A stretch of 39,028 nucleotides of DNA, taken from NCBI RefSeq assembly GCF_001552555.1, contig NZ_BCRK01000037.1:1-39028 (forward strand), written 5' to 3'. The notes under the pieces were generated by a model. The model did not search any database. It was not told the origin of the DNA and saw nothing but the letters and a program-made list of their open reading frames with translations. The stretch is from Nocardiopsis trehalosi NBRC 14201. GTDB taxonomy: Bacteria; Actinomycetota; Actinomycetes; Streptosporangiales; Streptosporangiaceae. The position numbers and the translations under genes were made by a program. Positions 15,080 to 37,044 of this stretch are shown piece by piece (position 1 is the stretch's first letter; every line of letters starts with the position of its first letter).

Positions 15080-15108
15080 TGGACAATGGTCTTCTTATCG
15101 ATCTAAGT

Positions 15109-21107: not shown

Positions 21108-21115
21108 CGACGGGT

Positions 21116-21149
21116 GGCCCCGGCCGCCCCGAGGGGGCCGGCCGGGGCC
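21116..21149. terminator. Bidirectional terminator after ABC operon
   Basis: An 11-bp stem (GGCCCCGGCCG at 21116-21126, complement 21139-21149) with four further internal G-C pairs after a bulge. It lies between the convergent stops of the ATPase (21107) and the DUF397 gene (21157). Confidence 0.75.
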
Positions 21150-21156
21150 GCCCGCC

Positions 21157-21330
21157 CTACAGCCGATCCAGGTCCGCCAGCAGCGCGACCCACTCCCGAG
21201 CCGGAACCGCCAGCGTCCCCCGCTCCCGGTTCTGCGTATCCCGAACGAGGGTCACCAGACCCTCGGCCACCTCGACGCACTCGCCCGAAGCACCGCTGTA
21301 CGTCGACTTGTGCCAGTCCTGGTTACGCAT
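21157..21330 (-). CDS. DUF397 domain small protein
   Basis: A 57-aa protein, essentially one DUF397 domain. The diagnostic pieces are W-H-K-S-T-Y-S-G (residues 6-13), G-E-C-V-E-V-A (16-22) and V-R-D-T (29-32), then A-V-P-A-R-E-W near the end. DUF397 proteins are small actinobacterial partners of XRE-DUF5753 regulators; in Streptomyces coelicolor the Scr1/Scr2 type pair has been discussed as toxin-antitoxin-like, and related pairs affect development. Its ATG overlaps the last 8 bp of the regulator gene just upstream, so the two are co-translated. It ends 8 bp from the bidirectional hairpin. Biochemical function is unknown. Confidence 0.88.
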   Translation of the reverse strand: MRNQDWHKSTYSGASGECVEVAEGLVTLVRDTQNRERGTLAVPAREWVALLADLDRL

Positions 21331-22162
21331 GTAGCACCTCTCGAATCAGACCTAGGGAGTCGCCCGGGGTGAGCGCACGTGCTTGGAGCTCGCCGAAGAG
21401 TGCGATGTGGCGCCGTACCTCCGGGAGAGCGTCGTAGATCGAGCCTCCACCCGATGACTCCGCATAGAGTAGCGTCGTTCCATCCGGCACAGTCAGCAGC
21501 CTGAATGGGCCGCTACTCCCCGGTGAGTCGACGGTCGCCGACGGCAGGATTTGCAGGCGAATGGTTCCTGCCTCACCGAGGCCGTGTAGGTGCTGTAGTT
21601 GGGCCGTCATGACGTCCGCACTGCCAACGACGCGGCGGAGCACACTCTCATCGAGAACGACCCACAGAGTCGGTCCGTTCTCGCGTGTGTGCGTCTTGAA
21701 GCGCTCCATGCGTCCGGCGACCAAATGCTCGATCTCGTCCGGCCGGTCCAACGGGCGTCCAGATCGGAAGACTGCTCGCGCGTAGGGTTCGACTTGAAGA
21801 AAGCCGGGCACCAACGCGAGCCCCCATGTTCGAATCTCGGTGGCCTTCTCTTCTGAGCGCAATACCTGCCTGAACCACTCAGGATCGGCCGCGTGGCTCG
21901 TGGCCTCCGACCATCGCCGAAGCAGGGCGCCCTCGGTACCGAATATTCGGTCGAGTTCTACTGCTGTGTCCTTTTTGGTGGCCCGTGTGGCTCGCTCGAC
22001 CTTGGAGAGCATGCCGCTTGTTATGGTCAGCGAACGAGCGGCCTCGGCCAACGAAAGTCCGGCTTTCAGGCGCAGGCGGCGTACCTCGCGACCAAACGGA
22101 ACCCATGGGGTCAGGATTTTCTCGCCCATGGGTACCAAGTATCGACTAAGTGTGTACTCCAC
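21323..22162 (-). CDS. XRE-family regulator with DUF5753 domain (WhiJ/Scr1-like)
   Basis: A 279-aa regulator. The N-terminal helix-turn-helix (about 23-77) reads REVRRLRLKAGLSLAEAARS followed by TSGMLSKVERATR. The DUF5753 C-terminal domain (about 95-272) shows the typical P-E-W-F-R, LVPGFLQVEPYARAVF, VLDESVLRRVVG and LQILP blocks. The start may be GTG 22162 or ATG 22129; neither has a strong ribosome site. It overlaps the DUF397 gene by 8 bp and is divergent from a HATPase gene, reproducing the actinomycete WhiJ/AbaA-type gene set. GC is visibly lower than in flanking genes. A dyad just upstream (22166-22205) is a candidate autoregulatory site. Target genes are unknown. Confidence 0.9.
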   Translation of the reverse strand: MEYTLSRYLVPMGEKILTPWVPFGREVRRLRLKAGLSLAEAARSLTITSGMLSKVERATRATKKDTAVELDRIFGTEGALLRRWSEATSHAADPEWFRQVLRSEEKATEIRTWGLALVPGFLQVEPYARAVFRSGRPLDRPDEIEHLVAGRMERFKTHTRENGPTLWVVLDESVLRRVVGSADVMTAQLQHLHGLGEAGTIRLQILPSATVDSPGSSGPFRLLTVPDGTTLLYAESSGGGSIYDALPEVRRHIALFGELQARALTPGDSLGLIREVLHA

Positions 22163-22882: not shown

Positions 22883-24556
22883 TCAGTCGCCGGCGGTGCG
22901 GGTGCGGGGTTCGGCGCCCTGGATGGTGCGGTGGAGGGGGGACTCCGAGAAGGAGAGTTCGAAGTCGGGGGTGTCCGCGATGAGGGCCCGGGTGTAGTCG
23001 TGCTCCGGGCGCGACATCACCGTCCCCACCGGCCCGTACTCCACGATCTCCCCGCTGTTCAGCACCGCCACCCGCTGGGCGATGTTCGACACCAGCGCGA
23101 TGTTGTGCGTGACGAACAGCAGCGCCATCCCGTCGTCCTGCAGCCCGCGCAGCAGCTTCACGATCTCCGCCTGCACCGACACGTCCAGCGCCGACGTGAT
23201 CTCGTCGCAGATCAGCAGGTCCGGCCGGGTGGCCACCGCGCGGGCGATCGACACCCGCTGCCGCTCGCCCCCGCTCAGCTGCTCCGGGTAGCGCGCCGCG
23301 TAGGCGGCCGGGAGGGCCGCGCGCTCCAGCGCCTCGCCCACCACCGCGTCGGGGTCGTCCGGCCGCCCCGCCAGGTGCGTGTACGGCTGCAGGATCAGGT
23401 CCCGCACGCTCTTGCGCGGGTTCAGCGCCTCGTACGGGTTCTGGAAGATGTACTGCACCCGCCGCCGCTGCTCGGCGGTCCGCTTGTAGCTGCTCGCCGC
23501 CAGCGGGGCGCCGTCGAACAGCACCTCGCCGGTGAACCGGCGGTGCAGCCCGGCGATCGACCGGGCCAGGGTCGTCTTGCCCGACCCCGACTCGCCCAGC
23601 AGGGCCACGCACTCGCCCCGCCGCACCTCCACGTCGATGCCGCGCAGCACGTCCGCCTTGCCGTACCCGGCGCGCAGCCCGCGCACCCGCAGCAGGGCGT
23701 CTTCACCCGGCGCCGCCGCCTCGGCGTGCCCGGTGGTCTTCAGCAGCGGGACCGCGCGCAGCAGCTTCGCCGTGTACGGGTGGGACGGGGTGGCGAGCAC
23801 CCGCCGGGCCGGCCCGCGCTCCACCACCTTCCCGTCGTACATGACGGCGATCTCGTCGGCCAGGTCGGCCACCACCGCCATGTCGTGGCTGATGTAGACG
23901 CCCGCCGTGCCGTAGTCGCGGGTCAGCGCCCGGATGGTGGCCAGCACGTGCGCCTGCGTGGTGACGTCGAGCCCGGTGGTGGGCTCGTCCAGCACGATCA
24001 GGTCGGGGCGGCCGATGAACGCCATGGCGATGGCCACCCGCTGCTGCTGGCCGCCGGAGAGCTGGTGCGGGTAGCGGGCGAGGAACGCGTCGTCGTCGGG
24101 CAGCGCGACCTCGCGCAGCACCTCGCGCACCCGCGCGTCGACGCCCCCGCCCCCGGCCGGGGCGTCGTGCAGCGCCTCGGCGAGTTGGACGCGCAACCGC
24201 AGCGCCGGGTTGAGCGCCGAGGCGGGCGACTGCGGGATGTAGGCGACCGACCGGCCGCGCAGCCGGCGCACCTCGGCCTCGCTGCGGCCCAGCAGGTCCT
24301 CGCCGGAGAGGGTGATCGTCCCGGCGGTGATGGCGGTGGCGCGCTTGCCGTGCGCCAGCAGGGACAGGCCCAGGGTGGTCTTGCCGGAGCCGGATTCGCC
24401 GACCAGGCCCAGGATCTCGCCGCGCCGCACGGTCAGGGACACGTCGGAGACGATCTCCACGTCCGACGGCCGGCCGATGACGGTCAGCCCGTCGACCCGC
24501 ACCGCCGCCGCGGCACCCCCGCCCGCGCCGCCGGTTCCGCTGTGCTCGGTGGTCAC
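22883..24556 (-). CDS. Fused double ATPase of second peptide-type ABC transporter
   Basis: Single 557-aa polypeptide with two ABC domains. Domain 1 has Walker A GESGSGKT (53-60), Q-loop YIPQSPASALNP, signature LSGGQQQRVAI and Walker B LDEPTTGLDV. Domain 2 has Walker A GESGSGKT near 325, Q-loop YIFQNPYEALNP, signature LSGGERQRVSIARA and an unusual Walker B reading CDEITSALDVS (Ile in place of Pro). Unlike the ATPase at 18930-21107 it lacks the Cys-containing oligopeptide C-terminal domains, so the two systems are not recent duplicates. The GTG at 24556 overlaps the permease stop (GTGA). It is last in its operon, before the 18-bp hairpin. Confidence 0.93.
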   Translation of the reverse strand: MTTEHSGTGGAGGGAAAAVRVDGLTVIGRPSDVEIVSDVSLTVRRGEILGLVGESGSGKTTLGLSLLAHGKRATAITAGTITLSGEDLLGRSEAEVRRLRGRSVAYIPQSPASALNPALRLRVQLAEALHDAPAGGGGVDARVREVLREVALPDDDAFLARYPHQLSGGQQQRVAIAMAFIGRPDLIVLDEPTTGLDVTTQAHVLATIRALTRDYGTAGVYISHDMAVVADLADEIAVMYDGKVVERGPARRVLATPSHPYTAKLLRAVPLLKTTGHAEAAAPGEDALLRVRGLRAGYGKADVLRGIDVEVRRGECVALLGESGSGKTTLARSIAGLHRRFTGEVLFDGAPLAASSYKRTAEQRRRVQYIFQNPYEALNPRKSVRDLILQPYTHLAGRPDDPDAVVGEALERAALPAAYAARYPEQLSGGERQRVSIARAVATRPDLLICDEITSALDVSVQAEIVKLLRGLQDDGMALLFVTHNIALVSNIAQRVAVLNSGEIVEYGPVGTVMSRPEHDYTRALIADTPDFELSFSESPLHRTIQGAEPRTRTAGD

Positions 24557-25449
24557 TTCTGCACCCCCCGGTCGATGCCGATCGAGGCTCGGGCGAGCCC
24601 GTCGGTGATGAGGTTCGCGCCGATGGTGAGCAGCGCGACCGCGGCCACGGGCAGCGCCACCGACCACGGCTGGACGGTCAGCACCACCCGGTTCTCGTTG
24701 ATCATGAGCCCCCAGTCGGCGATCGGCGGCTGCAGCCCCATGCCGAGGAAGCTCAGCGTCGCGATGAGGCCGACCGAGTAGGTGATGCGCAGGCCCAGCT
24801 CGACCAGGAGCGGGCCGGTGATGTTCGGCAGGATCTCGCCGGCCATGATCCGCCAGCGGGGCACGCCGATGGCCTCGGCGGACTTCACGAAGTCCTGCTC
24901 GACCACCCGGAGCGTGGCCTCGCGGGCCACCCGCGCCACACGCGGCGCGTGGGACACCGCGATCAGCACCACGATGAGCCACACCTTCGGCCCGAGGATG
25001 GACATGACCAGCAGCGCGAGCACGAGCTGCGGGAACGCCAGCAGCATGTCGTTGGCGCGCATGACCAGGTCGTCCAGGCGGCCGCGCAGGTAGCCGGCCG
25101 CCATGCCCAGGACGGCGCCCGCGGCGACCCCGGCCAGCGCGGCGGTCACCGCCACCAGCACCAGGGTGTAGCCGCCGTGCAGGAACCGGCTGAACACGTC
25201 GCGGCCGACCTGGTCGGTGCCGAACAGGGTGCCGTCGACGTCGGTGGCGTTGGGGATGCCGACCAGCTCGGTCGGCGCGTAGGGGCTGACGAACGGGCCG
25301 ATCACGGCGGTGAGGACCACGGCGCCGGCGATGGCGACCCCGGCCTTGGTCCGGCCGTACCCCCAGGCGGTGCGGAGCAGGCCGCGGCCGCGGGCGGGCG
25401 GGGCGGCGGGGGCGGCGGGCGCCCCGGTGTCTGCGGTTGCGGCGGTCAT
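24553..25449 (-). CDS. Second ABC system permease (DppC-like)
   Basis: A 298-aa inner-membrane subunit. After an Ala/Pro-rich N-terminus (about 1-25) comes a helix, then the branch hallmark GTDQVGRDVFSRFLHGG, then five helices of BPD_transp_1. The coupling loop is QDFVKSAEAIGVPRWRIM, and the helix-5 region has LSFLGMGLQPP. The ATG at 25449 overlaps the DppB-like gene stop (ATGA), and its own stop overlaps the ATPase start (GTGA). All four genes of this operon are on the minus strand and complete. Confidence 0.92.
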   Translation of the reverse strand: MTAATADTGAPAAPAAPPARGRGLLRTAWGYGRTKAGVAIAGAVVLTAVIGPFVSPYAPTELVGIPNATDVDGTLFGTDQVGRDVFSRFLHGGYTLVLVAVTAALAGVAAGAVLGMAAGYLRGRLDDLVMRANDMLLAFPQLVLALLVMSILGPKVWLIVVLIAVSHAPRVARVAREATLRVVEQDFVKSAEAIGVPRWRIMAGEILPNITGPLLVELGLRITYSVGLIATLSFLGMGLQPPIADWGLMINENRVVLTVQPWSVALPVAAVALLTIGANLITDGLARASIGIDRGVQK

Positions 25450-26396
25450 CGGGCGGAGACCCTCACCTTCGGGTTGGCGGCCAGGCCCACGATGTCGGCC
25501 AGCAGGTTGACCACGATGTAGACGGCGGCGATGAGCAGGGTGACGGCCTGGATGACCGGGAGGTCGCGGGTGTTGATGGCGTCCATCAGCGCCAGCCCGA
25601 TCCCGGGGAAGCCGAACAGGTACTCGATGGCGACCACGCCGCCGGCCAGCCAGCCGAGCTGGAGGGCGATGACCTGGGCGACGGGGCCGATGGCGTTCGG
25701 TGCGGCGTGCCGCCAGATCACCGTCCGCTCGGGCAGGCCCTTGAGCCGCGCCTGCTGGACGTACTCGCTCTCCAGCACCTCGATCATGGACGCGCGCATC
25801 ATCCGGATGATCGGCGGGCTGACGGCGAGCACCAGGGTGGCGACCGGCAGCACGAGCTGCTCGGGGTCCTCCAGCACCGCCTGCCCGTTGCCGGCGAACA
25901 CCGCGGGCAGCAGGTGCAGGAACCCGGTGGAGAACGCGAGGATCAGCAGGATGCCGACCGCGAACTCGGGGATGGCCGCCAGCACCAGGGTGGCGGCCGA
26001 CGTCGCGTGGTCGGCGGCGCGGTCGCGGCGCAGCGCCGAGTAGGCGCCGAGGAACACGGCGACGGGGGTGGCGATCACCGCGGCGAGCGCCATCAGGGTG
26101 AGGCTGCCGACCGCGCGCTGGGCCAGGTACTCCGAGACCGGCAGCGCGTTGGCGAACGACGTGCCGAGGTCCAGGGTGACCACCCCGGCCAGCCACGACC
26201 CGTACTGCACGACGAGCGGGTCGTCCAGGCGGAGCTGGGCGCGCAGCGCCTCCAGGCGCTCGGGGGTGGCGTCGCGGCCGAGGATGGCGCGGGCGGCGTC
26301 GCCCGGCAGGGCCTGAGTGGCGAGGAAGACCACGAGCGAGACCACGAACAGGGTCAGCAGCCCGTAGGCGAGGCGTTTGAGGACGAGACGTGTCAT
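25446..26396 (-). CDS. Second ABC system permease (DppB-like)
   Basis: A 316-aa channel subunit. The N-terminal helix begins L-V-L-K-R-L-A-Y-G-L-L, followed by the extracytoplasmic LRLDDPLVVQYGSWLAG and DLGTSF segments usual for DppB. The coupling loop reads SEYVQQARLKGLPERTV, and EYLFGFPGIGLALMDAI is the conserved end block. It lies about 46 bp after the binding-protein gene and overlaps the next permease gene by 4 bp. Confidence 0.93.
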   Translation of the reverse strand: MTRLVLKRLAYGLLTLFVVSLVVFLATQALPGDAARAILGRDATPERLEALRAQLRLDDPLVVQYGSWLAGVVTLDLGTSFANALPVSEYLAQRAVGSLTLMALAAVIATPVAVFLGAYSALRRDRAADHATSAATLVLAAIPEFAVGILLILAFSTGFLHLLPAVFAGNGQAVLEDPEQLVLPVATLVLAVSPPIIRMMRASMIEVLESEYVQQARLKGLPERTVIWRHAAPNAIGPVAQVIALQLGWLAGGVVAIEYLFGFPGIGLALMDAINTRDLPVIQAVTLLIAAVYIVVNLLADIVGLAANPKVRVSAR

Positions 26397-26442
26397 GTGG
26401 CGACCTTCGGTGGGGACGACGGACGGGCGGCGGGGCGGAGGG

Positions 26443-28026
26443 CTAGCCCTCGATGCGCACCCGGTGGAACCCGTACGAGGTCAGCGGATGGCCGGTGACC
26501 GACGGTTCGAAGCCCGTGACCCTGCTGCTGAACGCGTCGACGGTGTTGACGAATCCCCAGACGATGTAGCCGCCGCGCTCGTACTCGATCTCCATGGCCC
26601 GCCGGATCAGGTCGGCGCGCTCGTCCTCGTCGACGGTGGCGCGGGCCCGCTCGATGAGGCCGACCCACTCGGGGTCGTCCCAGTGGGTCTCGTTGAACGC
26701 GGCGTCGGGCATGGAGCCCTGGGCGGCCTGGGAGAGGTAGTTGCGGGTGCTCCAGAAGTCCATGGCGAACGTCCACTGCAGGTAGTTGTCGCCGTAGAAC
26801 TCGGTGGAGGTGGTCTGGCGCAGGTTGACGGTGACCCCGGCGTCGCGCGCGTGCTCCTTGAACACCATGGCGGCGGCCTCGGCGCCCGGGCTGATGGGGC
26901 CGGTGACCAGCTCGACCTCCAGGCCGTCGCCGTGCCCGGCCTCGGCGAGCAGCCGCCGCGCCTCCTCGATGTCGCGCTCCCGCTGCGGCAGGTCGTCGTG
27001 GTAGGCGGGGTCGAACCGGCCGTAGACGTCGTTGCCGACGCTGCCGTACCCGGCCAGGGCGACGTCGACCATCTGCTGCCGGTCGACCATCAGCCGGAAC
27101 GCCTGGCGGACCCGGACGTCGTCGAACGGGGGCTGGTCGACGCGCATGGTGAACGGCAGCCACATCCCGGTCTCGGAGTCGAGGACGCGCAGGTTGTCGT
27201 TGGCCTCGATGACCGGGATGAGGGCGTGCGGGAGCTGGCTGATCACGTCGACCTGCCCGCCGACCAGGGCGTTGACCCGCGCGGTCTCGTCGGGGAAGTT
27301 GATGATCTCCAGTTCCGCGACGTAGGGCATGCCCTCCTGCCAGTAGCCCTCGTGGGCCGCGAACAGGCTGCGCTGGCCGGGGGTGAACTCGACCAGCTTG
27401 AACGGGCCGGAGCCGATCGGGGCGTCCGGGTCGTAGCTTTCGGGGACGATGCCGGTGCTGTACTCGGCGACGAGGTCGAGGAAGGTCACGTAGGGCTCGG
27501 TGAACACGAGTTCCGCGGTGCGCTCGTCCACCACGCGCAGGTTGTCGCGGTCGAGGGTGGCGAGCTGCGCGGCGTTGACCCCGGGGGCGTCGGGGTCGGT
27601 GATGCGGCGGAAGGTGAACACGACGTCGTCGGCGGTGATGGGCGACCCGTCGTGGAAGGTCAGCCCCTCGCGCAGGACCACCGTCCACACCGTGGCCTCG
27701 GCGTTGGACTCCACCGACTCGGCCAGCGCCATGCCGATGGAGTAGTCGGTGCCGAAGGCGCACAGGGTGGAGTACAGGTTGTGGGTGCGCGCGATGTCGG
27801 TGTTGTCGGTGGGCTGGTGGGCGTCGAGGGTGTCGGCCGCCGAACCGCCGGCGACCCCCACCCGGAGCCGGTTGGCCACCGAAGCGCCGGAGCCGCCGGA
27901 ACCGCCGCCGCACGCGGCCAGGGCCGGGACGACGACGGCACCGGCGGCTCCGGCCTTGAGCAGGCCGCGGCGGCTGGGGCCGGTGCGGACGGGGGGACGG
28001 GTGGGCGGGGTGGGTGTCGACGGCAC
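26443..28026 (-). CDS. Second ABC system substrate-binding lipoprotein (Tat-type, family 5)
   Basis: A 527-aa binding protein. The N-terminus carries a twin-arginine motif S-R-R-G-L-L-K (residues 18-24), a hydrophobic stretch and a lipobox L-A-A-C with Cys39, so a folded lipoprotein exported by Tat is predicted, unlike the Sec-type binding protein at 15169. The SBP_bac_5 body follows, with TVWTVVLREGLTFHDGSPIT (about 115-135) and GSGPFKLVEFTPGQ (about 205). The start is GTG at 28026 with CGAGGT 8 nt upstream. It is the first gene of the minus-strand operon. The ligand is unknown; Tat export can accompany binding of cofactor-like ligands, but that is only a hint. Confidence 0.9.
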   Translation of the reverse strand: MPSTPTPPTRPPVRTGPSRRGLLKAGAAGAVVVPALAACGGGSGGSGASVANRLRVGVAGGSAADTLDAHQPTDNTDIARTHNLYSTLCAFGTDYSIGMALAESVESNAEATVWTVVLREGLTFHDGSPITADDVVFTFRRITDPDAPGVNAAQLATLDRDNLRVVDERTAELVFTEPYVTFLDLVAEYSTGIVPESYDPDAPIGSGPFKLVEFTPGQRSLFAAHEGYWQEGMPYVAELEIINFPDETARVNALVGGQVDVISQLPHALIPVIEANDNLRVLDSETGMWLPFTMRVDQPPFDDVRVRQAFRLMVDRQQMVDVALAGYGSVGNDVYGRFDPAYHDDLPQRERDIEEARRLLAEAGHGDGLEVELVTGPISPGAEAAAMVFKEHARDAGVTVNLRQTTSTEFYGDNYLQWTFAMDFWSTRNYLSQAAQGSMPDAAFNETHWDDPEWVGLIERARATVDEDERADLIRRAMEIEYERGGYIVWGFVNTVDAFSSRVTGFEPSVTGHPLTSYGFHRVRIEG

Positions 28027-28520
28027 GGGCGACCTCGGTTCGGCTCGGCGGCGGCGGACCTTCTGCCGGGCGCGGAACCTGATCGGCGGACCGGACGGCG
28101 GGGGCCGTGGCCCACCGCCGCGGGCGCGCCGCGCGCACCGACGTCCCGATAGTCGTCACCCCGTCCGCGCACGTCAAGCCGTGTCGGGGCGGTGGCGCAG
28201 CGTGCCCGCCGCGCCGGCGGGGGCGGGCGGCGGCGGTCGCGGGCCGGACGCGTGAAAGCCGTTTCCAACAGCGGCTATGCGAAAATCGCACCCGCGTCCG
28301 GAGTGCGCGGCGGGTGGCCGCGTACGCTGCGCGGGGACGCCCCCGCGGCGTTGTCCGGGGCGCGGACGTCGTGATCCAATCGATGTCACCGAGTGGCGAA
28401 ACCTTGTTGTTTAGAGCCGGGTCTGTGTCGTGGGTCGCATAACGGGCGACCGCCCGGTTGCTCCTGCCCGGCCGACCCGGGCGCGTCCGCCCCCGCGCCC
28501 TGCCCGCGCCCCGCCGTCGC
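28027..28520 (-). other. Intergenic region upstream of second ABC operon
   Basis: 494 bp without a credible gene. It should hold the promoter of the minus-strand ABC operon, but no -35/-10 pair convinced me. A short dyad (AGCCG-N10-CGGCT) lies near 28257-28276. A 6-bp hairpin at 28466-28482 may terminate the ATPase gene that ends at 28521. Open frames here are composition artefacts. Confidence 0.45.
28466..28482 (-). terminator. Possible terminator after CooC/MinD-like gene
   Basis: GCCCGG-CCGAC-CCGGGC: a 6-bp stem with a 5-nt loop about 40 bp past the stop codon. Weak compared with the other hairpins in the window. Confidence 0.35.
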
Positions 28521-29510
28521 TCAGGCGGTCGCCCCCGCGGCCGCGGCGCGCTGCGCCGCCAGCTTGTCGGGGCCGAGCACGAAGTCGGGGTCGACCTGCC
28601 CCGCGAGGTCGGCGCCGGTGGCGGCGCCGGCCCAGGCGCGCGCGTTGCGCAGGTGGAACTCGACGCTCTGCCGGGTGAACCGCGGCCAGTCCTTGACCGC
28701 GCCGTCGACGGTGTCGCGCATCCAGGCCAGGGTCTTGGCGTTGTCGTCCTCCAGCTCGGCGAGGTCGGGGTGGCGGCCCTTCTCCATGGCGCGGACGAAC
28801 GCGGAGTGGCCGAAGCAGGCCGCGAGGGCGTCGCCCACGTGCTCGCGCAGGAACTCGACGTCGGCGGCGTCCTGCACCTTGTTGCCGATGACCCGGATGT
28901 CGACGCCGTGGTCGCGGGCGTAGTCGGCGTACTGGCGGTAGACGCCGACGCCGCGCACGGTGGGTTCGGCCACCAGGAAGGTGACGTCGAAGCGGGTGAA
29001 CAGCCCGGAGGCGAAGGAGTCGGCGCCGGCGGTCATGTCGACCACCACGTACTCGCCGGGGCCGTCGACCAGGTGGTTGAGGTACAGCTCGGCGGCGCCG
29101 ATCTTGGAGTGGTAGCACGACACCCCGAGGTCGTCCTCGGAGAAGGGGCCGGTGACCATCAGCGTGGCGCCGTCGACCCGGTGGCCGAAGCGCTCGTGCA
29201 CGGGGTTGCCGGGCGCCATGCCGAGCAGCAGCGACCCGGGTCCGGGCGGGGTGGTCTTGACCATCTCGTCGGCGGAGCCGATGCGCGGGTTGGTGCCGCG
29301 CAGCAGCTCCTTGATGTCGCGGATGTGCGCCCCCATCGGGGGGATGCGGGCGAGGTCGGCGGGGGCGACCCCCAGGGCCGCGCCGAGGTTCTGGTTGATG
29401 TCGGCGTCGATGGCCACCACGGGGAGTCCCGCGGCGGCGAGGTGCCGGGTGAACAGCGCCGACAGGGTGGTCTTGCCGCTGCCGCCCTTGCCGGCGAACG
29501 CGATCTTCAT
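28521..29510 (-). CDS. CooC/MinD-like P-loop ATPase
   Basis: A 329-aa SIMIBI-class ATPase. The N-terminus has the deviant Walker A GKGGSGKTT (7-15, with signature Lys8 and Lys13), then DADINQN (about 36-42). Other pieces are YVVVDMTAGAD and VAEPTVRGVGVYRQY, typical of the CooC/ParA group, and the base-recognition-type IGNKV. In CooC such ATPases insert nickel into carbon-monoxide dehydrogenase using a C-x-C pair; no C-x-C is visible here (only isolated Cys, for example in VSCYHS), and no CODH gene is nearby, so a metal-insertion role is not established. The ATG at 29510 starts directly at the P-loop strand; the upstream frame is unlike the family. A promoter-overlapping palindrome lies about 60 bp upstream. 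Function unknown. Confidence 0.85.
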   Translation of the reverse strand: MKIAFAGKGGSGKTTLSALFTRHLAAAGLPVVAIDADINQNLGAALGVAPADLARIPPMGAHIRDIKELLRGTNPRIGSADEMVKTTPPGPGSLLLGMAPGNPVHERFGHRVDGATLMVTGPFSEDDLGVSCYHSKIGAAELYLNHLVDGPGEYVVVDMTAGADSFASGLFTRFDVTFLVAEPTVRGVGVYRQYADYARDHGVDIRVIGNKVQDAADVEFLREHVGDALAACFGHSAFVRAMEKGRHPDLAELEDDNAKTLAWMRDTVDGAVKDWPRFTRQSVEFHLRNARAWAGAATGADLAGQVDPDFVLGPDKLAAQRAAAAGATA

Positions 29511-29569
29511 CGGATGGTGCCTTTCGACTACACGGGTGCGGCGGACGGGCGCCGCCGCACAGGGATGGA

Positions 29570-29582
29570 AACGATTATCGTT
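29570..29582. promoter_or_regulatory. Perfect palindrome AACGAT-T-ATCGTT (operator-like)
   Basis: A 6-1-6 perfect dyad about 60 bp upstream of the CooC/MinD-like start, overlapping its predicted -10 box (29574-29579). The shape and A/T-rich core resemble Fur/Zur-family metalloregulator boxes. Regulator assignment is inference. Confidence 0.5.
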
Positions 29583-29603
29583 GCTTGCCACCCATCGTGT
29601 CAG
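29574..29603 (-). promoter_or_regulatory. Predicted promoter of CooC/MinD-like gene
   Basis: On the minus strand, CTGACA (29598-29603), an 18-bp spacer and GATAAT (29574-29579) form a good vegetative-type pair. The start codon is about 60 bp downstream. Confidence 0.5.
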
Positions 29604-29902
29604 GCATTTCACCGGATCGTGTCCTGGCGGCCGGGTCGGCGCCCGCCGGACCGCGGCCGCACCCGGCCGCCCGGGGCCGCGTCCGGCCCCCCGCTCTTCT
29701 GACCAGGTGATTTGCGCAGGTCAGTAAGGTGGTGAACGGTTGTGGGCCGCAGATTTTGTCGTATCGCGATGGGACACATGGCCGCGTTTTGTGGGGTATT
29801 CGAGAACAAGTGGGGTGCGGTGTGCTGTCCTGGTCATGGTGCGCCGTTGTCTAGGGTGAGGCCGTCGGCTACCGCCGGGTGGTGATGGGGAGTGAGACGG
29901 GG

Positions 29903-30415
29903 ATGACCGATTCGCAGCGACTCCGCGAATACGCCGCTGCCGACCCCTTCGACGCGCCCGATCTGGAGGCGAGCGAGTCCCCCGGCGACACCACCGACCA
30001 CACCGTCTGGAGCTGCGTCGGCAACCTCACCGCCGTGCGCTCCATCCGCGCGCGCGTCCGCGAGTTCCTGGAGCGCTCCGGGCCGCCCCGCTCCCTGCTC
30101 GACGACGCCGAACTCGCCGCCAGCGAACTCGCCACCAACGCCCTGCTGCACTCCCGCTCCGGCCAGGTCGGCGGCGTCATGACCCTGTTCATCCGCTCCG
30201 GCCGCGACCGGGTCCGCGTGGCGGTCGCCGACCAGGGCGAGAAGCGCCCCGAGGGCGTCGCCGGCTCCTCGGCCGTGCGCGAGGAGAACGGCGACTACGG
30301 CCGCGGCAAGCTCATCATCGAGAGCTGCACCACCCGCAGCGGCGAGTACTGGACCGAGAGTACCCACGTCGCCTGGTTCGAGATCGACCTGCCCGGCGGG
30401 CTGATCGGCGCCTGA
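29903..30415 (+). CDS. HATPase-domain protein (RsbW/anti-sigma-like)
   Basis: A protein of about 170 aa with one GHKL ATPase domain of the HATPase_c_2 type after an acidic N-terminal stretch of about 40 residues. The N box is ASELATNALLHS, the G1 box VADQGEKRP, and the G2 region GDYGRGKLIIESC. The ATG at 29903 follows GACGGGG; starts at 29879 (GTG) and 29885 are alternatives. Such proteins are numerous in actinomycetes, where they may bind sigma factors or anti-sigma antagonists. No sigma factor or STAS-domain partner is adjacent, so this is an orphan. It converges on the half-length adenylate-forming protein gene 36 bp away. Confidence 0.85.
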   Translation: MTDSQRLREYAAADPFDAPDLEASESPGDTTDHTVWSCVGNLTAVRSIRARVREFLERSGPPRSLLDDAELAASELATNALLHSRSGQVGGVMTLFIRSGRDRVRVAVADQGEKRPEGVAGSSAVREENGDYGRGKLIIESCTTRSGEYWTESTHVAWFEIDLPGGLIGA

Positions 30416-30451
30416 GGCCGCCTGAGGCTGCCCCCGCCCGCCCCGGCGCGG

Positions 30452-31318
30452 TCAGCGGCGCGCGGCCACGCGCACCGGGGTGGGCGCCCCGCGCACGGTC
30501 ACCCCGAGCGCCGCCAGGGCGTCGTGCGGCGGGGCGCCGCAGGGGTCGCAGGGGTCGCCGGCGTCGGCGGTGACCACCGACGCCCCGTTCCACAGCGCGG
30601 CGGCCGCGAGCGCGGCGCGCTCGGGCTCGGACATGCGGTGGTCGACCGCGACGGTGTCGCCCGGCGCCAACCGGAGGTCGGCGGCGTAGCGCCGGAACCG
30701 CCGCGCCAGGTCGGCGTGCGGGTGCAGCCGCGTGCGCGGCCCCGACGGTGCGGCGGTGTAGCCCAGGATGCCGTTGTCGAACAGGCCGCGCGCGGGGTCG
30801 TAGTCGCTGCCGTCGGGGCTGGGCAGCAGGAGTTCGCCGAACGGGGTGGTGTCGGGCGCGGCGCCGAACGCCACCACCTGGCGGACGCGGGAGCGGTCGG
30901 CCAGCTCCAGCGCGATGTCGGCCAGCGCGGCGGTGACCAGGATGATCCGGACATCGGTCGCGGTGAGCAGCTCGATCAGGGTCTCCAGGTCGGAGGTGAG
31001 CTCCATGGGGAGCGCGACCCCGCCCACGGCGAGAACGGTGTAGACGGCGGTCAGGCGCTCGGGGCAGACCGGCGCCAGGACGCCGACGACGTCGTCGGGG
31101 CACATGCCCCGGCGGCTCAGGCCCGCGGCGGCGCGTTCGACGGTCGCCGCGAACGCGACGGCGTCGGTGCCGCGGCCCCGGGAGTCGGTCACCGCGGCCC
31201 GCTCGTCCAGGCGGCGGAGCCGGTCGAGCAGGCCGCCGGTGAGCGACCCCGTCGGATGGGCGCCGGCGCCGGCGCCGCTTACGACGCCGGCGCCGGTACA
31301 CGGCCGGTCGACCGCCAT
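30452..31318 (-). CDS. Half-length ANL (AMP-binding) homologue, probably non-catalytic
   Basis: A 288-aa protein matching only the first part of acyl-CoA synthetase/adenylation enzymes (normally about 500 aa). The conserved frame is recognisable: AAAGLSRRGMCPDDVVGVLAP (split here: residues about 64-83), VYTVLAVGGVALPM (92-105), then LGYTAAPSGPRTR (185-197). The last should be the Thr/Ser-Gly-rich P-loop Y-T-S-G-T-T-G-x-P-K-G; the Gly-Thr-Thr-Gly core and the Lys are lost. The protein ends after LGVTVRGAPTPV, before the adenylate-binding core and the whole C-terminal domain with the catalytic Lys. Yet the frame is clean and GGGGGGAGG precedes the ATG, so it is not an obvious decayed pseudogene. 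A regulatory or scaffold role is possible. It sits beside two LuxR-type regulators. Confidence 0.75.
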   Translation of the reverse strand: MAVDRPCTGAGVVSGAGAGAHPTGSLTGGLLDRLRRLDERAAVTDSRGRGTDAVAFAATVERAAAGLSRRGMCPDDVVGVLAPVCPERLTAVYTVLAVGGVALPMELTSDLETLIELLTATDVRIILVTAALADIALELADRSRVRQVVAFGAAPDTTPFGELLLPSPDGSDYDPARGLFDNGILGYTAAPSGPRTRLHPHADLARRFRRYAADLRLAPGDTVAVDHRMSEPERAALAAAALWNGASVVTADAGDPCDPCGAPPHDALAALGVTVRGAPTPVRVAARR

Positions 31319-31723
31319 GGTGTGGCCTCCCCCCTCGGCTGACCGCCTACCGGGCTCGTCACGCCCCCTCCACGTGGCGAGCCCGGTGGCGCCGTGCCCG
31401 CGGTCGCCCCGGATGCTCCCCTCTGCGCATCCGGAGCAGCACGGCCCGCGGTGCCGTGGCCTCAGCGGGCCCCGTCCGCCCCGCGGCCCCCCAAGGGCAC
31501 GGAACGGCGGAGGCCCACGCCGCCTCCACGGCTTCCCGGAGGTGTCCGCCCTCCAGGACGCCCGGGCCGCTCCGCCGATCCGCCGAAGCGGTGGCGGGCC
31601 GCGGCCCATGCCCATGACATTAGCGTTTTCGCGCGCTTTTGCACATGCATTCTCAGGTGCACCTGCATATGTAAATTCACTCTGCGCGCGGGCGGTTCCG
31701 GATCGCCGCAGGTCGCGGGGCGG
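31319..31723 (-). other. Intergenic region with AT-rich palindromic segment
   Basis: 405 bp between two minus-strand genes. Most is GC-rich and empty, but about 31613-31680 is strikingly AT-rich for this genome and contains the 12-bp palindrome at 31654-31665. A 72-codon frame crossing it (31462-31680, minus) has Arg/Gly-rich low-complexity sequence and is not called. Confidence 0.5.
31654..31665. promoter_or_regulatory. Perfect palindrome CAGGTGCACCTG
   Basis: A 12-bp perfect palindrome flanked by ATGCAT (31646-31651) and GCATATG (31665-31671), in an AT-rich patch about 335 bp upstream of the half-length ANL gene. Likely promoter/operator region; the regulator may be one of the neighbouring LuxR proteins, which is inference. 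Confidence 0.4.
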
Positions 31724-34168
31724 TCACCGCGGACCCGAGTGGCGGTTCACCCACGCGGCGATCTGCTTGCGCGAGTTGAACCCCATCTTGCGGTTGATGT
31801 TGGCGACGTGCCGCGCCACCGTGGCGGGCGCGATGAACAGCCGCTCGGCGATCGCGCGGTTGTTGCCGCCCTGGCCCACCAGCCGGGCGATCTCCTGCTC
31901 GCGCGGGGTCAGCGCCTCGGTCGGCGGCTGGGCGGTGCGGGTCAGCGGCGGCCGGGGGCGCGCCCGCCGCCCCGCGTCGGTGACGTCCAGGGCCAGCGCG
32001 ACGGCGCCGTCGACGTCCAGCGCCGCCCCCTCGTCCCAGCAGGCCACCAGCTCCGGGTCGGTGGGCGCCGAACCGTCGACGGCCGGCCACGGGCGCCGCG
32101 ACGGCGGCACCCCCGCGTGCTCGCGCAGCGCGGCCGCCGCCCCCGCGAACCGGTGGGCGTCGTGCGGCTGGTCCTGGTCGGCCACCACCCGCGCCAGCGA
32201 CAGCAGCGCCTCGGCCACCCCCGCGAGCTGGCCGGTGGCGTGGCCCAGCAGCAGGCCCTCGCTCAGGTAGTCGTAGGCCTGCGCGGTGGCGCCCAGGCCG
32301 TGCGCGATGCGGCCCACGCCCGCCAGGCAGCGCGCCAGCTCCGGCGCCGCCCCGATGTCGCGCTGGATGTCGAGCGCCTCGCGGTAGCAGCGGTCGGCCG
32401 CATAAAGGTCGCCCTGCGCCTCGGCGATCGTGCCCTGCCCGATGAGGGTCACCCCCACCCCCCACCGGTGGTCCATGCCGCGCAGGATCATCAGGGCGGT
32501 GTTGTAGCGGGTCTCGGCGCCGACGAGATCGCCCAGCTGCGCCGAGAGGGTGCCCAGGGTGCCGAGGGCGATCGCCTCGTTCCACAGGTCGCCGGTCTCG
32601 CGGGACAGCTTCAGCGCCTCGGCCAGGCGGTCGCCGGCGCGGTCGTAGGCGCGCAGCCGCAGGTCGACCATCGCGAGCACGTTCAGCGCCCGCACCACCG
32701 GCTCGGTGTCGTCGGCCGCCCGGCACAGCCGCATGCCCTCCTCGGCGATGGCGATGGCGGAGTCGAGTTCGAGTCGCGCCCACGCGAGTTCGGCCCGGCC
32801 CACCAGGGCCCGCCCGCGCAGTTCCGGCGGGCCGCCGCCCATATCGAGGAAGACGTCGCTCCACCGGCAGCCCTCGGTGAAGTGGTAGCCGGTCACCCAG
32901 AACGGGCGCAGCCCCACGCACATCCGCAGGCCGTCCTCGACCCGCCGGCCGGCCACCGCCCAGTGCAGCGCGGCGCGCACGTTGTCGTACTCGTCGATCA
33001 CCCGGTGCCAGTGGCCGAACCGCTCGCGCCACGGCATGGCCCGGCCCAGCACCGACATGCGGCCCAGGTCGGCGCAGATCGACCCGAGGTGCCGGCAGTG
33101 GCGCTCGCGGACGGCCTCCTCCTCGCCCGCGCCCACCAGGTGCGCGGCGGCGAACCGGCGCACCGGCGCGGGCAGCCGGTACCGGACCCGGCCCCGGTGC
33201 TCGCCGGTGAGCGCGATCAGGCCCCGGTCGACCAGCGACGCCAGCAGATCGAGGATGTCGGCCTCGGCCAGCGGGGCGCCCGAGCATACCCGCTCGGCCA
33301 GCTCCAGATCCCAGTGCGGGAACACCGACAGTCGGCGCAGCAGCACGCGCTCGGGTTCGCTCAGCAGCGCGTGGCTCCACTCCAGCACCCCGCGCAGCGG
33401 CCGCGGCCGCGCCCGGCAGCGGGGGTCGCCGGTGCGCGGGCCGACCCGCTCGGCGACGCCCGCGGCGATCCGGTCCAGCGGCAGCCGCCCCGCCCACGCG
33501 GCGGCGAGTTCGATGCCCAGCGGGTTGCCGTCCAGGCGGCGGCAGACGTCGGCCGCCACGGCGAGGTCGGCGTCGGAGAACACCAGGCCCGGGGAGGCGG
33601 CGCGCGCCCGCTCGGTGAACAGCCGCACCGCGGCGGCGGTGTCGGGGCCGGGGTCGCCCCCGGCGCGGGGGAGCGGCAGCGGCGGGACCCACCAGGCGGA
33701 CTCGTCCGCCACCCCGACGGGGTCGCCCGCGGTGATCAGCAGGGACAGCTCCGGGCACGACGCCACCAGGGCCCCGCCCAGCGCGGCGACGTGGTCGGCG
33801 ACCCCGTCGCAGGCGTCGAGCACGAGCAGCAGGCGGCGGCCGTGCAGCGCGTCGCACAGGGTGTCGGCGAGGTCGCGCCGGGCCTCCTCGGCCACGCCGA
33901 GGGCCGACGCGATGCGTGAGGCGACCTCGCCCGCGGTCCGGGCGTCGCCCAGCGCGGCCAGCCACACCCCGTCGGGGAACGACGCCGTCGACAGTGCGGC
34001 CAGCCGCAGCGCCAGCCGGGTCTTCCCCACGCCGTCGGCGCCGCACAACGTGATCACGCGATCGGTGTCGAGCAGCCGCAGCAGATCGCTGAGATCGCGC
34101 TCGCGGCCGATGAGGGCGTCGGATTCCGGGGGGAGGTTCTGCCGCGCGGGCGCGGTCTGAGGTGCCAT
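31724..34168 (-). CDS. NB-ARC/AAA + TPR + LuxR-type transcriptional regulator (1)
   Basis: An 814-aa regulator. The N-terminal NB-ARC-like ATPase begins LIGRERDLSDLLRLL, Walker A is GADGVGKT (43-50) and Walker B LLLVLDACDG is near 113-122. A winged-helix segment (LEWSHALLSEPERVLLRRLS) lies near 265-285. A long alpha-helical TPR-like array spans about 390-680. The C-terminal LuxR HTH (about 755-810) reads LTPREQEIARLVGQGGNN, then AIAERLFIAPATVARHVANI. The ATG at 34168 starts just before the ATPase. This architecture is common for actinomycete pathway regulators, which use ATP-dependent switching. It is paralogous to the next upstream gene over the full length. Target genes are unknown; the half-length ANL gene downstream is a candidate. 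Confidence 0.9.
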   Translation of the reverse strand: MAPQTAPARQNLPPESDALIGRERDLSDLLRLLDTDRVITLCGADGVGKTRLALRLAALSTASFPDGVWLAALGDARTAGEVASRIASALGVAEEARRDLADTLCDALHGRRLLLVLDACDGVADHVAALGGALVASCPELSLLITAGDPVGVADESAWWVPPLPLPRAGGDPGPDTAAAVRLFTERARAASPGLVFSDADLAVAADVCRRLDGNPLGIELAAAWAGRLPLDRIAAGVAERVGPRTGDPRCRARPRPLRGVLEWSHALLSEPERVLLRRLSVFPHWDLELAERVCSGAPLAEADILDLLASLVDRGLIALTGEHRGRVRYRLPAPVRRFAAAHLVGAGEEEAVRERHCRHLGSICADLGRMSVLGRAMPWRERFGHWHRVIDEYDNVRAALHWAVAGRRVEDGLRMCVGLRPFWVTGYHFTEGCRWSDVFLDMGGGPPELRGRALVGRAELAWARLELDSAIAIAEEGMRLCRAADDTEPVVRALNVLAMVDLRLRAYDRAGDRLAEALKLSRETGDLWNEAIALGTLGTLSAQLGDLVGAETRYNTALMILRGMDHRWGVGVTLIGQGTIAEAQGDLYAADRCYREALDIQRDIGAAPELARCLAGVGRIAHGLGATAQAYDYLSEGLLLGHATGQLAGVAEALLSLARVVADQDQPHDAHRFAGAAAALREHAGVPPSRRPWPAVDGSAPTDPELVACWDEGAALDVDGAVALALDVTDAGRRARPRPPLTRTAQPPTEALTPREQEIARLVGQGGNNRAIAERLFIAPATVARHVANINRKMGFNSRKQIAAWVNRHSGPR

Positions 34169-34403
34169 GGCTCACGCGTGTAGGCGGTCGGGGGCCGCTC
34201 TCACCTTGCCTGGGGGTAAGGGCGGGTCGGCGGTCAGGGGAACGGCTGCCTGCGGATGCCTAGAGCTCTGTCTTAGTAGCTGGACACCGCGTATGCAAGC
34301 GATACCGGGGAATCTCCCGGCGGCCGCGGCGCGAACCGGGACGACACGCCCCGGCGGGCCGCGCGGCGCACCGTCGGCGGGGGAGCGGGGCCGGTCCGGG
34401 CGG

Positions 34404-36836
34404 TCAGTGGACCATCCCGTGCCGCTCGGCCCACTCGGCGAGCTGGGTGCGCGACGTGATCAGCAGTTTGCGGAAGATGTTCGCGATGTGCCGGGCCGCC
34501 GTCGCCTGGCTGATGATCAGCCGGTCGGCGATCTGCCGGTTCGACAGGCCCGCCCCCACCAGGGCAGCGATCTCGCGCTCGCGCGGGGTCAGCAGCGCCG
34601 GCAGCGCCCGGCGCGGGGTGGAGAACGCCAGGGCGCGCTCCACCGCCTGCTCCAGCGGCAGGGTGCGCCACGCCGACCACGCCTTCTCGGCGGCGTCGGG
34701 CGACAACTCCCGGCGGGCCGCCGCCAGCAGCTCGTCGGCGTGCGGCGACGGCTGCCCCAGGCCGGTGTAGATCTGCGCGGCCACGCCCACCAGCGACGCG
34801 GCGCGCTCCGGCAGCTCCTCGGCCAGGGCGAGTTCGGCCAGCGCCTCCAGGGCGCGGGCGACCGCGGTGCGCCGCCCCGACGCCACACTGATGCGCAGGC
34901 ACCCCGACAACCGGCGGCGGGCCCCGGAGATGTCGCCCCGGGCGAGATCGAGGTAGCCCATGGAGGCCGTGCACCGCGCGGTCTCGGGGGCCACCCCGAT
35001 CTCGGAGAACACCCGCAGGGCCTCGCTCAACTGCCCCTCGGCGGCATCGAGGTCGCCCACCTGGGTGGAGAGCACGCCCAGGCCGTTGAGGCCGCGCGCC
35101 ACGAGCCACCGGTCGCCCAGCCGCTCGGCGGACGCGACAGCGGCGCGCAACCGGGCCTCGGCGGCGGCGGGCGCGCCGCGCCGCCGCTCCAGCCGGCCCA
35201 GGGTGCTCAGCACGGCGATCTCGGTGAAGTGGTCGAGCACCCCGTCGGCCCCGGCGAGGGTGCGCAGGGCGTGCCGCTCGCAGGCGGCGTCGTCGCCGGT
35301 GCGCAGCGCGGCGGCGGCCAGCGCGCCGTGGGCGATCACCTCGGCCTGGGGGTCGCCGCAGGACCGCGCCAGGGCCAGGGCCTGGCGGGCCAGCGCGGTG
35401 GCGGTGTGGGCGCCCTCGGTGTCGAGGCAGAGTTCGGCGTGGACGGCCAGCGCGCGCGCCCGAACGGGGGCGGCCGCCTCGGGGTGCGGCGGGTCGAGCA
35501 GCCGGCGCAGGTAGTGGGCGCCCTCGGTGTAGAGGCCGCGCACGAACCAGTAGGGGCGCAGCGCCACGCACAGGCGCAGCCCCTCCTCGGTGCGGCCGCG
35601 CTCCAGCGCCCACACCAGCAGCCGCGCGGTGTTCTCGCGGTGGTGGTCCAGGTGGGCCATGTAGCGCAGCCGCTCCGACCACGGCAGGGGGCGGGCGACG
35701 GCGTCGGCCATGCCCTCGTGCCAGACGATGGACTCGGCCAGGCAGCGGTCCCAGGTGGTGTCCTCCTCGCCGGCGGCCACCAGCCGTTCGGCGGCATAGG
35801 CGCGCACGGTGTCGGGCAGCCGGTAGTGGGCCGCGCCGTCGACCTCGGCGTCGCGCACGATGAGGGAGTGGTCGAGCAGCGCGCTCAGCAGGTGCAGGAC
35901 GTCGCCGGGGTCGATGCCGCCGTAGCCGCACACGGCCTCGGCCTGGGACAGGTTCCAGGTGCCGAACACGGTGAGGCGGCGCAGCAGCACCTGCTCGGGG
36001 TGGGGGAGCAGGTCGTGGCTCCACTCCAGCACCGCGCGCAGGGTGCGCTGCCGGGGCGGCAGTTCGCGGCCGGAGGTGACGAGCAGCCGGAACCGGTCGT
36101 CCAGCCGGTGCAGGACCTGCTGCACCGACAGCACCCGGGTGCGCGCCGCGGCGAGTTCGATGGCGAGCGGCACCCCGTCGAGGATGCGGCAGATGTCCAT
36201 GATGTCGCCCGCGTTGTCAGCGGTCACGGCGAAGCCGGGGCGGGCGGCGCGGGCCCGGGCCGCGAACAGCCGGACCGCCTCGTAGCGCAGGGCGGTGTCG
36301 GGGGGGACGGGCAGCGGGGGCGGGCCGTGGTCGCGGGCCACGGGCGGCGGCAGCGACAGCGGGGGCACCCGCCAGATGGTCTCGCCGGCGATGCGCAGCG
36401 GCTGCCGGCTGGTCGCCAGGATCTGCACCGCCGGACACGCGGTCAGCAGCGTGCGGCACAGCCCGGCCAGCGGCCCCACGGCGCGCTCGCAGGTGTCGAG
36501 CAGCAGCAGGACCCGCAGCGGGCGCAGCGCGGTGACGATGGCGTCGATCGGCGCCTTCTCGCTGTTCTCCAGCACCCGTAGCGACCGGGCGACCGCCCGC
36601 ACCACCTGGTCGGGGGAGGCGGCCTCGCTCAGGTCCACGAAGCGGACGCCGTCGGCGAAGCGCGACCGGACGCGGTCGGCCACCCGCAGCGCCAGCCGGG
36701 TCTTGCCCATGCCCCCGGTGCCCGTCAGGGAGACCATGCGGGTGCCGCCGAGAATCCGGCAGAGCTCGGTGACGTCGCGTTCGCGTCCGACGAAGTCGTC
36801 AGCTGACGGGGGCGGGATCTCGCGCGGGTCTGACAT
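34404..36836 (-). CDS. NB-ARC/AAA + TPR + LuxR-type transcriptional regulator (2)
   Basis: An 810-aa regulator with the same layout as its neighbour at 31724-34168. FVGRERDVTELCRIL leads into Walker A GTGGMGKT (39-46); Walker B LLLLDTCER is near 110-120; VPLAIELAAARTRVLS is a typical NB-ARC helix-core segment; a TPR-like array follows. The C-terminal LuxR HTH begins LTPREREIAALVGAGLSN and continues with QIADRLIISQATAARHIANI. A GTG 12 bp upstream (36848) is an alternative to the ATG at 36836; GAGG lies only 2-3 nt before the ATG, so the start is not settled. The two proteins align throughout but are well diverged, suggesting an old tandem duplication. 235 bp separates the genes. Confidence 0.9.
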   Translation of the reverse strand: MSDPREIPPPSADDFVGRERDVTELCRILGGTRMVSLTGTGGMGKTRLALRVADRVRSRFADGVRFVDLSEAASPDQVVRAVARSLRVLENSEKAPIDAIVTALRPLRVLLLLDTCERAVGPLAGLCRTLLTACPAVQILATSRQPLRIAGETIWRVPPLSLPPPVARDHGPPPLPVPPDTALRYEAVRLFAARARAARPGFAVTADNAGDIMDICRILDGVPLAIELAAARTRVLSVQQVLHRLDDRFRLLVTSGRELPPRQRTLRAVLEWSHDLLPHPEQVLLRRLTVFGTWNLSQAEAVCGYGGIDPGDVLHLLSALLDHSLIVRDAEVDGAAHYRLPDTVRAYAAERLVAAGEEDTTWDRCLAESIVWHEGMADAVARPLPWSERLRYMAHLDHHRENTARLLVWALERGRTEEGLRLCVALRPYWFVRGLYTEGAHYLRRLLDPPHPEAAAPVRARALAVHAELCLDTEGAHTATALARQALALARSCGDPQAEVIAHGALAAAALRTGDDAACERHALRTLAGADGVLDHFTEIAVLSTLGRLERRRGAPAAAEARLRAAVASAERLGDRWLVARGLNGLGVLSTQVGDLDAAEGQLSEALRVFSEIGVAPETARCTASMGYLDLARGDISGARRRLSGCLRISVASGRRTAVARALEALAELALAEELPERAASLVGVAAQIYTGLGQPSPHADELLAAARRELSPDAAEKAWSAWRTLPLEQAVERALAFSTPRRALPALLTPREREIAALVGAGLSNRQIADRLIISQATAARHIANIFRKLLITSRTQLAEWAERHGMVH

Positions 36837-37009
36837 GGCCTCGTTCACTGGGGCGACCGTGCCTTGCGGGGCGCACGAGGGCACCGGGCGCTCCCGGACG
36901 GACGTGACCCCGTGCGATCGAGTCTTCCACGCGGCGACCGCCGTGTCCGGGGAATGGCCGGTTCCGGCGGGCGGGCACGGACGGCGCGGGCGTCCGCTAC
37001 GGGTCGGGC

Positions 37010-37039
37010 GCGGACCCGCCGGACGCCCGGCGGGTCCGC
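37010..37039 (-). terminator. hisS terminator hairpin
   Basis: A perfect 13-bp stem (GCGGACCCGCCGG at 37010-37022, complement 37027-37039) with a 4-nt loop, 5 bp past the hisS stop codon on the minus strand. Confidence 0.8.
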
Positions 37040-37044
37040 CACCC

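Follow-up and report, generated by a model that had tools for sequence, protein, structure and literature searches.

A CooC-like ATPase with a conserved Zur-type box and an altered metal motif is a possible zinc metallochaperone of actinomycetes

Introduction

In Nocardiopsis trehalosi NBRC 14201, the gene of a P-loop ATPase of the CooC/MinD class lies behind a predicted promoter whose -10 element is covered by a palindrome. Which metal, if any, does this palindrome answer to, and what might the ATPase do once it is made? We followed these questions through a 39,028-nt stretch of contig NZ_BCRK01000037.1 (hereafter the window), the remainder of the host genome and the genomes of relatives. A first-pass annotation of the window had proposed that the palindrome resembles a metalloregulator box and that the ATPase is metal-regulated, possibly serving a metalloenzyme or a step of metal homeostasis. 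The features needed for the argument are the following.

29598..29603, minus strand: -35 hexamer CTGACA of a sigma-70-like pair, TGACA being present in 12 of 16 rows
29574..29579, minus strand: -10 hexamer GATAAT, inside the operator
29566..29586, minus strand: predicted Zur operator of 21 bp (25.6 bits), with a 13-bp core dyad at 29570-29582
28521..29510, minus strand: ATPase gene, CooC/MinD-class P-loop protein of 329 aa, ATG at 29510, predicted member of the Zur regulon
29466..29492, minus strand: deviant Walker A GKGGSGKTT, residues 7-15, signature Lys8, read from the sequence
29109..29117, minus strand: C132-Y133-H134 motif, aligned to the metal-binding C-x-C of CooC (3KJE and 22 CooC-like proteins)
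22883..28026, minus strand: Nik/Opp-type ABC importer adjoining the ATPase gene, its membership in the ATPase unit uncertain
26443-28026, minus strand: SBP_bac_5 protein of this importer
25446-26396 and about 24553-25450, minus strand: its permeases
about 22883-24589, minus strand: its fused ATPases

Results

The promoter is as it had been described in the annotation. Positions 27950-29900 contain a single sigma-70-like site, CTGACA-18-GATAAT on the minus strand, against a mean of 0.0 in shuffled sequence, and the perfect dyad AACGAT-T-ATCGTT (AACGATTATCGTT) is matched exactly at 29570-29582, overlying the -10 hexamer. With 2 mismatches allowed, shuffles of the window contain on average 0.02 matches to the dyad. 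In printed rows of the host and its near relatives, TGACA stands 17 or 18 nt before a GATAAT inside the box in 12/16 cases and is absent at this spacing in loci L019, L022, L025 and L026. A GTG start, giving a 363-aa open reading frame, was disfavoured; the ATG at 29510 is the likelier start because the alignment of orthologues begins there, with A4 and F5 invariant in its 30 rows.

We then looked at where else the dyad occurs, a check that the annotation had suggested and that proved informative, as the same box marks metal genes. When up to 2 mismatches were allowed, the 13-mer was matched 11 times in 9 places across the whole host genome, which comprises 6.38 Mb in 368 contigs, and its reversed pattern, used as a control, gave 0; a 16-mer variant gave 19 matches in about 14 places versus 1 for its control. 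Boxes precede an rpmB2/rpsN2-like operon and an L31-like gene (ribosomal genes recognised by eye), genes for ZnuA, a CDF exporter and an ABC-3 permease (by Pfam), the znuCB-zur unit (znuC by eye), an ArsP_1 permease gene (found with the 13-mer), an NRPS gene and a gene of the PF20704 family. No recognised zinc gene was found at the 13-mer places on contigs C29, C51 and C85 or at the 16-mer place on contig C171. The FUR protein of the znuCB-zur unit is nearest to Streptomyces coelicolor Zur (3MWM, E 5.2e-45), and the dyad is of the same type as the S. coelicolor Zur ChIP motif tGaNNatSatNNtCa given in the accessible portion of PMC5472717. The host shares with the S. coelicolor Zur regulon not only the box type but also znuA, a zitB-like CDF gene, ribosomal paralogues and a siderophore-type NRPS cluster; unlike the host, S. 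coelicolor has no such ATPase among the Zur targets in the part of PMC6103462 available to us (Table 3).

The palindrome is thus a metalloregulator box of Zur type, and the ATPase is, as far as its operator can tell, very probably under Zur control. The metal sensed is most likely zinc, as predicted from the fact that the host zur lies in a znuCB-zur unit which is itself boxed. Control by nickel or iron was rejected, the box being common to zinc genes.

Two further boxed loci were seen in the host. Contig C143:187-627 encodes a second Zur-like FUR protein (3MWM, E 2.5e-23), whose gene is itself preceded by a Zur-type box. NRPS and tailoring-type genes on contigs C164 and C242 carry four Zur-type boxes; judged by eye, they may form a coelibactin-like cluster, whose product is a candidate zinc-binding natural product.

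For quantitative comparison, a 21-bp Zur matrix was built from 12 host sites, each chosen for lying before a zinc-type gene or a cluster gene; the sites of the ATPase and of PF20704 were kept out of the training. The ATPase site scores 25.6 bits against leave-one-out scores of 18.0 to 34.7 for the training sites. A scan of the window returned no second Zur box, the next separate site reaching 9.3 bits at 15081.

ATPase orthologues (E 1e-10) are present in 39/61 family genomes, host included. A box of at least 14 bits lies within -250 to +3 of the ATPase start in 30/30 fetched family loci (host included), so that the dyad is conserved before orthologues, the point on which the annotation had proposed to test it. 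Among control upstreams, taken from other neighbouring genes in the named loci, 7/459 reach this score; one of the seven belongs to znuA, one to a PF20704 gene, and three overlap the ATPase start region. In a named collection from which the best 80 of more than 587 loci were analysed, 38/80 carry a box of at least 14 bits and 39/80 one of at least 12 bits. Nearly all boxless loci among these best 80 (40/41) are one Streptomyces-type locus, canonically found near a HAD hydrolase, a SulP-type transporter and an acetyl-CoA-synthetase-like gene; the remaining one, L153, is from a MAG. The Streptomyces-type locus is boxed in L141 and L146 (21.7 and 18.5 bits) and weakly so in L170 (13.0 bits), and S. 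rugosispiralis carries both kinds, L167 without a box and L169 with one.

A tree was calculated from 89 rows, comprising 30 family loci, 54 of the best 80 named loci and 5 CooC outgroup rows; on it, the box label changes 5 times versus 19.1 when shuffled. The tree was a quick one without a mixture model, and the join of its outgroup carries a long-branch warning. Loss of the box in Streptomyces is the simplest reading of change counts that cannot separate gain from loss. Since the canonical Streptomyces copies keep C-Y-H without a clear upstream box, the job of the ATPase there must extend beyond Zur-sensed starvation. Synteny suggests that the orthologue in S. coelicolor is SCO3560. Streptomyces loci such as L121, L133 and L158 have a conserved start region at the ATPase gene, TGAACATGAA, which scores about 18 bits (about 17-19) as a Zur box. 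This Zur-like motif, which most of the canonical copies in Streptomyces have over their start codon, was not counted as a box, as it may merely encode the start MKIAF; the region may reflect a coding or leaderless-start constraint.

The protein itself has a Pfam CbiA match of 37.3 bits, above the cut-off, and the deviant Walker A SIMIBI ATPase fold of CooC. As the annotation had it, the deviant Walker A motif GKGGSGKTT is present, and all nine of its residues are invariant in 30/30 orthologue rows. The nearest PDB sequence is CooC1 of Carboxydothermus hydrogenoformans (3KJE, E 5.5e-11), which is also the first Foldseek match (21-22% identity) of the AF2 model (mean pLDDT 90.1); by Z, CooC ties with relatives of the nitrogenase Fe protein (19.6 vs 19.7). 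Both proteins have the signature lysine and a motif at the same alignment position, but CooC1 has 254 residues and C-Y-C, whereas the window ATPase has 329 residues and C-Y-H. The earlier statement that no C-x-C is visible is literally correct, yet it passes over the C-Y-H that occupies that position. C132, Y133 and H134 are invariant in 30/30 family rows, and C-Y-H is found in 80/80 named loci (the best 80 of more than 587; 79 by pattern and L141 by eye), two sets that overlap in organisms. The loop that holds it (residues 128-134) is the only segment of the AF2 model under pLDDT 50. Phylum-wide, 78/246 genomes match the ATPase at 1e-10, and within this 246-genome draw E<1e-140 is reached in the host and in seven further genomes, all from one other family; the weaker CooC-like matches have C-x-C in 22/22 sequences read.

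CooC1 is the nickel-inserting ATPase of CODH, and, according to the part of PMC9164220 available to us, the metal and nucleotide sites of CooC govern its oligomeric state. The annotation had noted no CODH gene nearby, and this extends past the window, PF03063 being unmatched at 0.001 in the host genome, where the ATPase has a Zur-type box. The analogy with CooC therefore holds for fold and kinship, and not for the letters of the metal site or for a CODH client. Taken together, the proposal of a metal-regulated ATPase for metal homeostasis is supported by its box, by C-Y-H and by part of the neighbourhoods described below.

Neighbours were searched by tblastn with 14 query proteins in the fetched flanks of the best 80 of more than 587 named loci. 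A metal-import or zinc-regulon gene, PF20704 uncounted, was found in 21 of the 39 loci with a box of at least 12 bits (14 with CbiM/CbiQ, 3 with a Nik/Opp-type importer, and L108, L150, L159 and L169), and in none of the 41 boxless loci; in the searched flanks of the other 18 box-bearing loci, no metal-import gene was found. Because clades have loci in common, the counts do not represent independent cases. In L108 (Actinoallomurus spadix), znuA, znuC and two permease genes run divergently from the ATPase gene (partly by eye), and L169 has a znuACB-like set beside it (partly by eye). In L159, PF20704 follows the ATPase, and the opposite strand holds a TIGR03943-like gene (by eye), an ArsP_1 gene, an S18 paralogue and a COG0523 GTPase. 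L063 and L150 seem to come from one and the same organism.

In the window, 494 nt separate the ATPase from the downstream Nik/Opp-type importer. This importer adjoins the ATPase in only part of the relatives; it was not found beside it in loci L049, L050, L052 and L054 and is divergent from it in L056. An operon shared by ATPase and importer is uncertain on this evidence. On the other side, positions 29879-37088 encode a HATPase_c protein, an AMP-binding fragment and two large regulators whose ends resemble LuxR (by eye), a set that recurs beside the ATPase in most near relatives. The stretch 18007-22162 encodes another importer of Opp type (plus strand) and, adjoining it, a DUF5753/HTH regulator (minus strand).

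The PF20704 protein (130 aa) was present in all ATPase genomes examined for both, which makes it the first candidate as partner or client; in many genomes, its gene adjoins that of the ATPase. The family is described in the accessible part of PMC9710616 as an AntiFam entry reinstated into Pfam. PF20704 occurs in 46/61 family genomes, namely in 39/39 with the ATPase (in two pieces in G015) versus 7/22 without it (one partial); the Fisher value of 2.4e-9 is uncorrected for kinship or for the incompleteness seen in some of the genomes that lack the ATPase. A class-level set of 20 genomes gave PF20704 in 7/7 with the ATPase and 3/13 without, and all 46 ATPase genomes checked have it. PF20704 does not always need the ATPase, as it is found in genomes that lack the latter. 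The host copy lies at C61:16522-16905.

Thirty PF20704 loci were fetched, 15 beside the ATPase, 13 apart from it and 2 from genomes without it. An own box precedes PF20704 in 8/13 loci apart and 2/15 beside (L245 and L256); the G020 copy, counted as beside, lies next to a fragment of a second ATPase copy where the contig ends. Among the five other loci apart, L255 reaches 13.6 bits, and two come from genomes that hold a second full copy (G016 and G048). One of the two loci from genomes without the ATPase has a box of 28.0 bits and the other is cut by a contig end, while three class-level copies without the ATPase score 13.7, 20.2 and 27.5 bits. Seven canonical copies from the Streptomyces-type family have no 12-bit box within 300 nt, like the ATPase there. 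In G083, a second PF20704 copy adjoins a second ATPase, with a 19.1-bit box 1033 nt upstream of PF20704, approximately at the start of that ATPase. An alignment of 16 rows shows no variation at C26, C94 and H95 and almost none at C128, and the protein model resembled no solved fold clearly, the best Foldseek E being 0.11 and the best Z 5.4. Judged by its boxes, PF20704 looks like a Zur-regulon protein.

Finally, we compared the ATPase with the COG0523 GTPases. Those of the YciC/ZigA/ZagA type are, in the available portions of PMC6103462, PMC2770081 and PMC9164220, Zur-regulated P-loop NTPases of zinc starvation and putative metallochaperones, a description that the ATPase would share. They differ from it as G3E-family GTPases with CxCC, the cobW GTPase domain PF02492 being unmatched at 0.001 in the window protein. 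A PF02492 search found no COG0523 GTPase in the host, whose only strong match is UreG. Among the candidates scored, strong cobW-family matches (E<1e-50) occur in 5/61 family genomes, four of which (G007, G008, G021 and G045) also have the ATPase; the E-value was the sole ground for assigning these five to COG0523, and weaker matches were taken as UreG/HypB-like, which was tested for the host only. A simple replacement of COG0523 by the ATPase was rejected, as both occur together in 4/39 ATPase genomes and there is no mutual exclusion.

Discussion

The ATPase resembles CooC and COG0523 in kind, yet fails a defining feature of each. It carries a box that it shares with zinc genes and that is conserved before its orthologues, a C-Y-H exchanged for C-x-C, and a link to PF20704; from these, we infer Zur binding, a dimer, zinc binding, chaperone action and a client. 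The reading that we favour, at about even confidence, is a Zur-repressed, ATP-driven zinc metallochaperone that acts in the manner of CooC or COG0523 and is neither. Zinc-loaded Zur on the dyad would cover the -10 element and keep the promoter off; when zinc drops, Zur would leave the dyad and the ATPase would be made, both steps being suggested by the conserved sequence. By analogy with CooC, the ATPase is probably an ATP-dependent homodimer, in which Cys132 and His134 of the two chains could form a Cys2His2 site in place of the four cysteines of CooC. Cys2His2 is a typical zinc site. ATP binding and hydrolysis might then load zinc and release it to a client, so that the ATPase, with PF20704 or acting on it, would move zinc to proteins in an ATP-dependent manner. 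It would be the ATP-using counterpart of the COG0523 zinc GTPases, for which this task has been proposed and which the host seems to lack.

Other readings were weighed against this one. The ATPase might be an energiser like ArsA, coupling ATP hydrolysis to a transporter of the zinc regulon, above all ArsP_1/COG0701, and not handing zinc on to proteins. ArsA-type ATPases belong to a related superfamily, an ArsP_1-type permease gene lies 30 nt after the ATPase in L108, ArsP_1 is also found in L159 and L150, and the host ArsP_1 gene is boxed. However, this linkage is confined to 3/80 named loci (the best 80 of more than 587), the window protein is single-domain, lacking tandem ArsA domains, and its PF02374 match (19.6 bits) is below the cut-off of 24.3, while C-Y-H aligns with the CooC site; we consider such a role improbable. 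We are equally sceptical of a non-metal switch of the MinD/ParA type that would position or regulate something during zinc starvation, with C-Y-H being structural. MinD, FleN, BcsQ and nitrogenase Fe proteins do match the model at about the Z of CooC, and the fold is also that of Soj/ParA, but by sequence MinD is far behind CooC1 (E 1.7e-3 vs 5.5e-11), the MinD and ParA family models are far below their cut-offs (for MinD, TIGR01969 28.8 vs 201.75 bits and TIGR01968 25.4 vs 212.9), and C-Y-H is invariant at the very place of the CooC metal site.

It is also unlikely that the ATPase inserts nickel or cobalt during zinc shortage, either as a stand-in for zinc or in the maturation of a nickel or cobalt enzyme. 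CooC itself inserts nickel (PMC9164220, in the part available), the window neighbour is a Nik/Opp-type importer, and CbiM/CbiQ lie in the flanks of 14/39 boxed named loci (from the best 80 of more than 587), all of the Actinomadura/Thermomonospora clade. Against this, the CbiM/CbiQ group is a single clade without an own box of at least 16 bits in the fetched flank, zinc genes adjoin the ATPase in other relatives, and the Nur-like protein of the host is a FUR protein separate from the one whose type of operator is found here. In relatives of this clade (L107, L119, L123 and related loci), the ATPase follows the CbiM-CbiQ cobalt/nickel importer genes in the same direction. That the dyad is the operator of another FUR-family regulator, Nur or Fur, is very improbable, for although FUR-family boxes are mutually similar and the host has a Nur-like protein, distinct from Zur, and a second Zur-like one, the genes sharing the box are the classic Zur set.

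The accessible portions of the Zur papers PMC5472717 and PMC6103462 make no mention of the ATPase, and we found no paper on it in the literature on Zur, CooC-like and MinD-like proteins and metallochaperones, subscription literature lying mostly outside the scope of this search. Beyond the zinc metallochaperone proposed here, a more tentative suggestion is that actinomycetes hold a second, ATP-driven class of zinc metallochaperones, derived from CooC, with C-x-C turned into a C-x-H zinc site, with PF20704 as a partner or client, and with COG0523 seemingly scarce. Accounts of how the last zinc of a starved cell reaches the right proteins have so far leaned largely on COG0523 GTPases, and a conserved Zur-box ATPase with an altered metal motif brings a second, different NTPase to it. 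Through its link with the ATPase, PF20704, a family formerly listed as spurious, is tied to zinc starvation, and both add candidate genes to the zinc response of actinomycetes. The ATPase may represent an unrecognised zinc-handling machine in soil actinomycetes.
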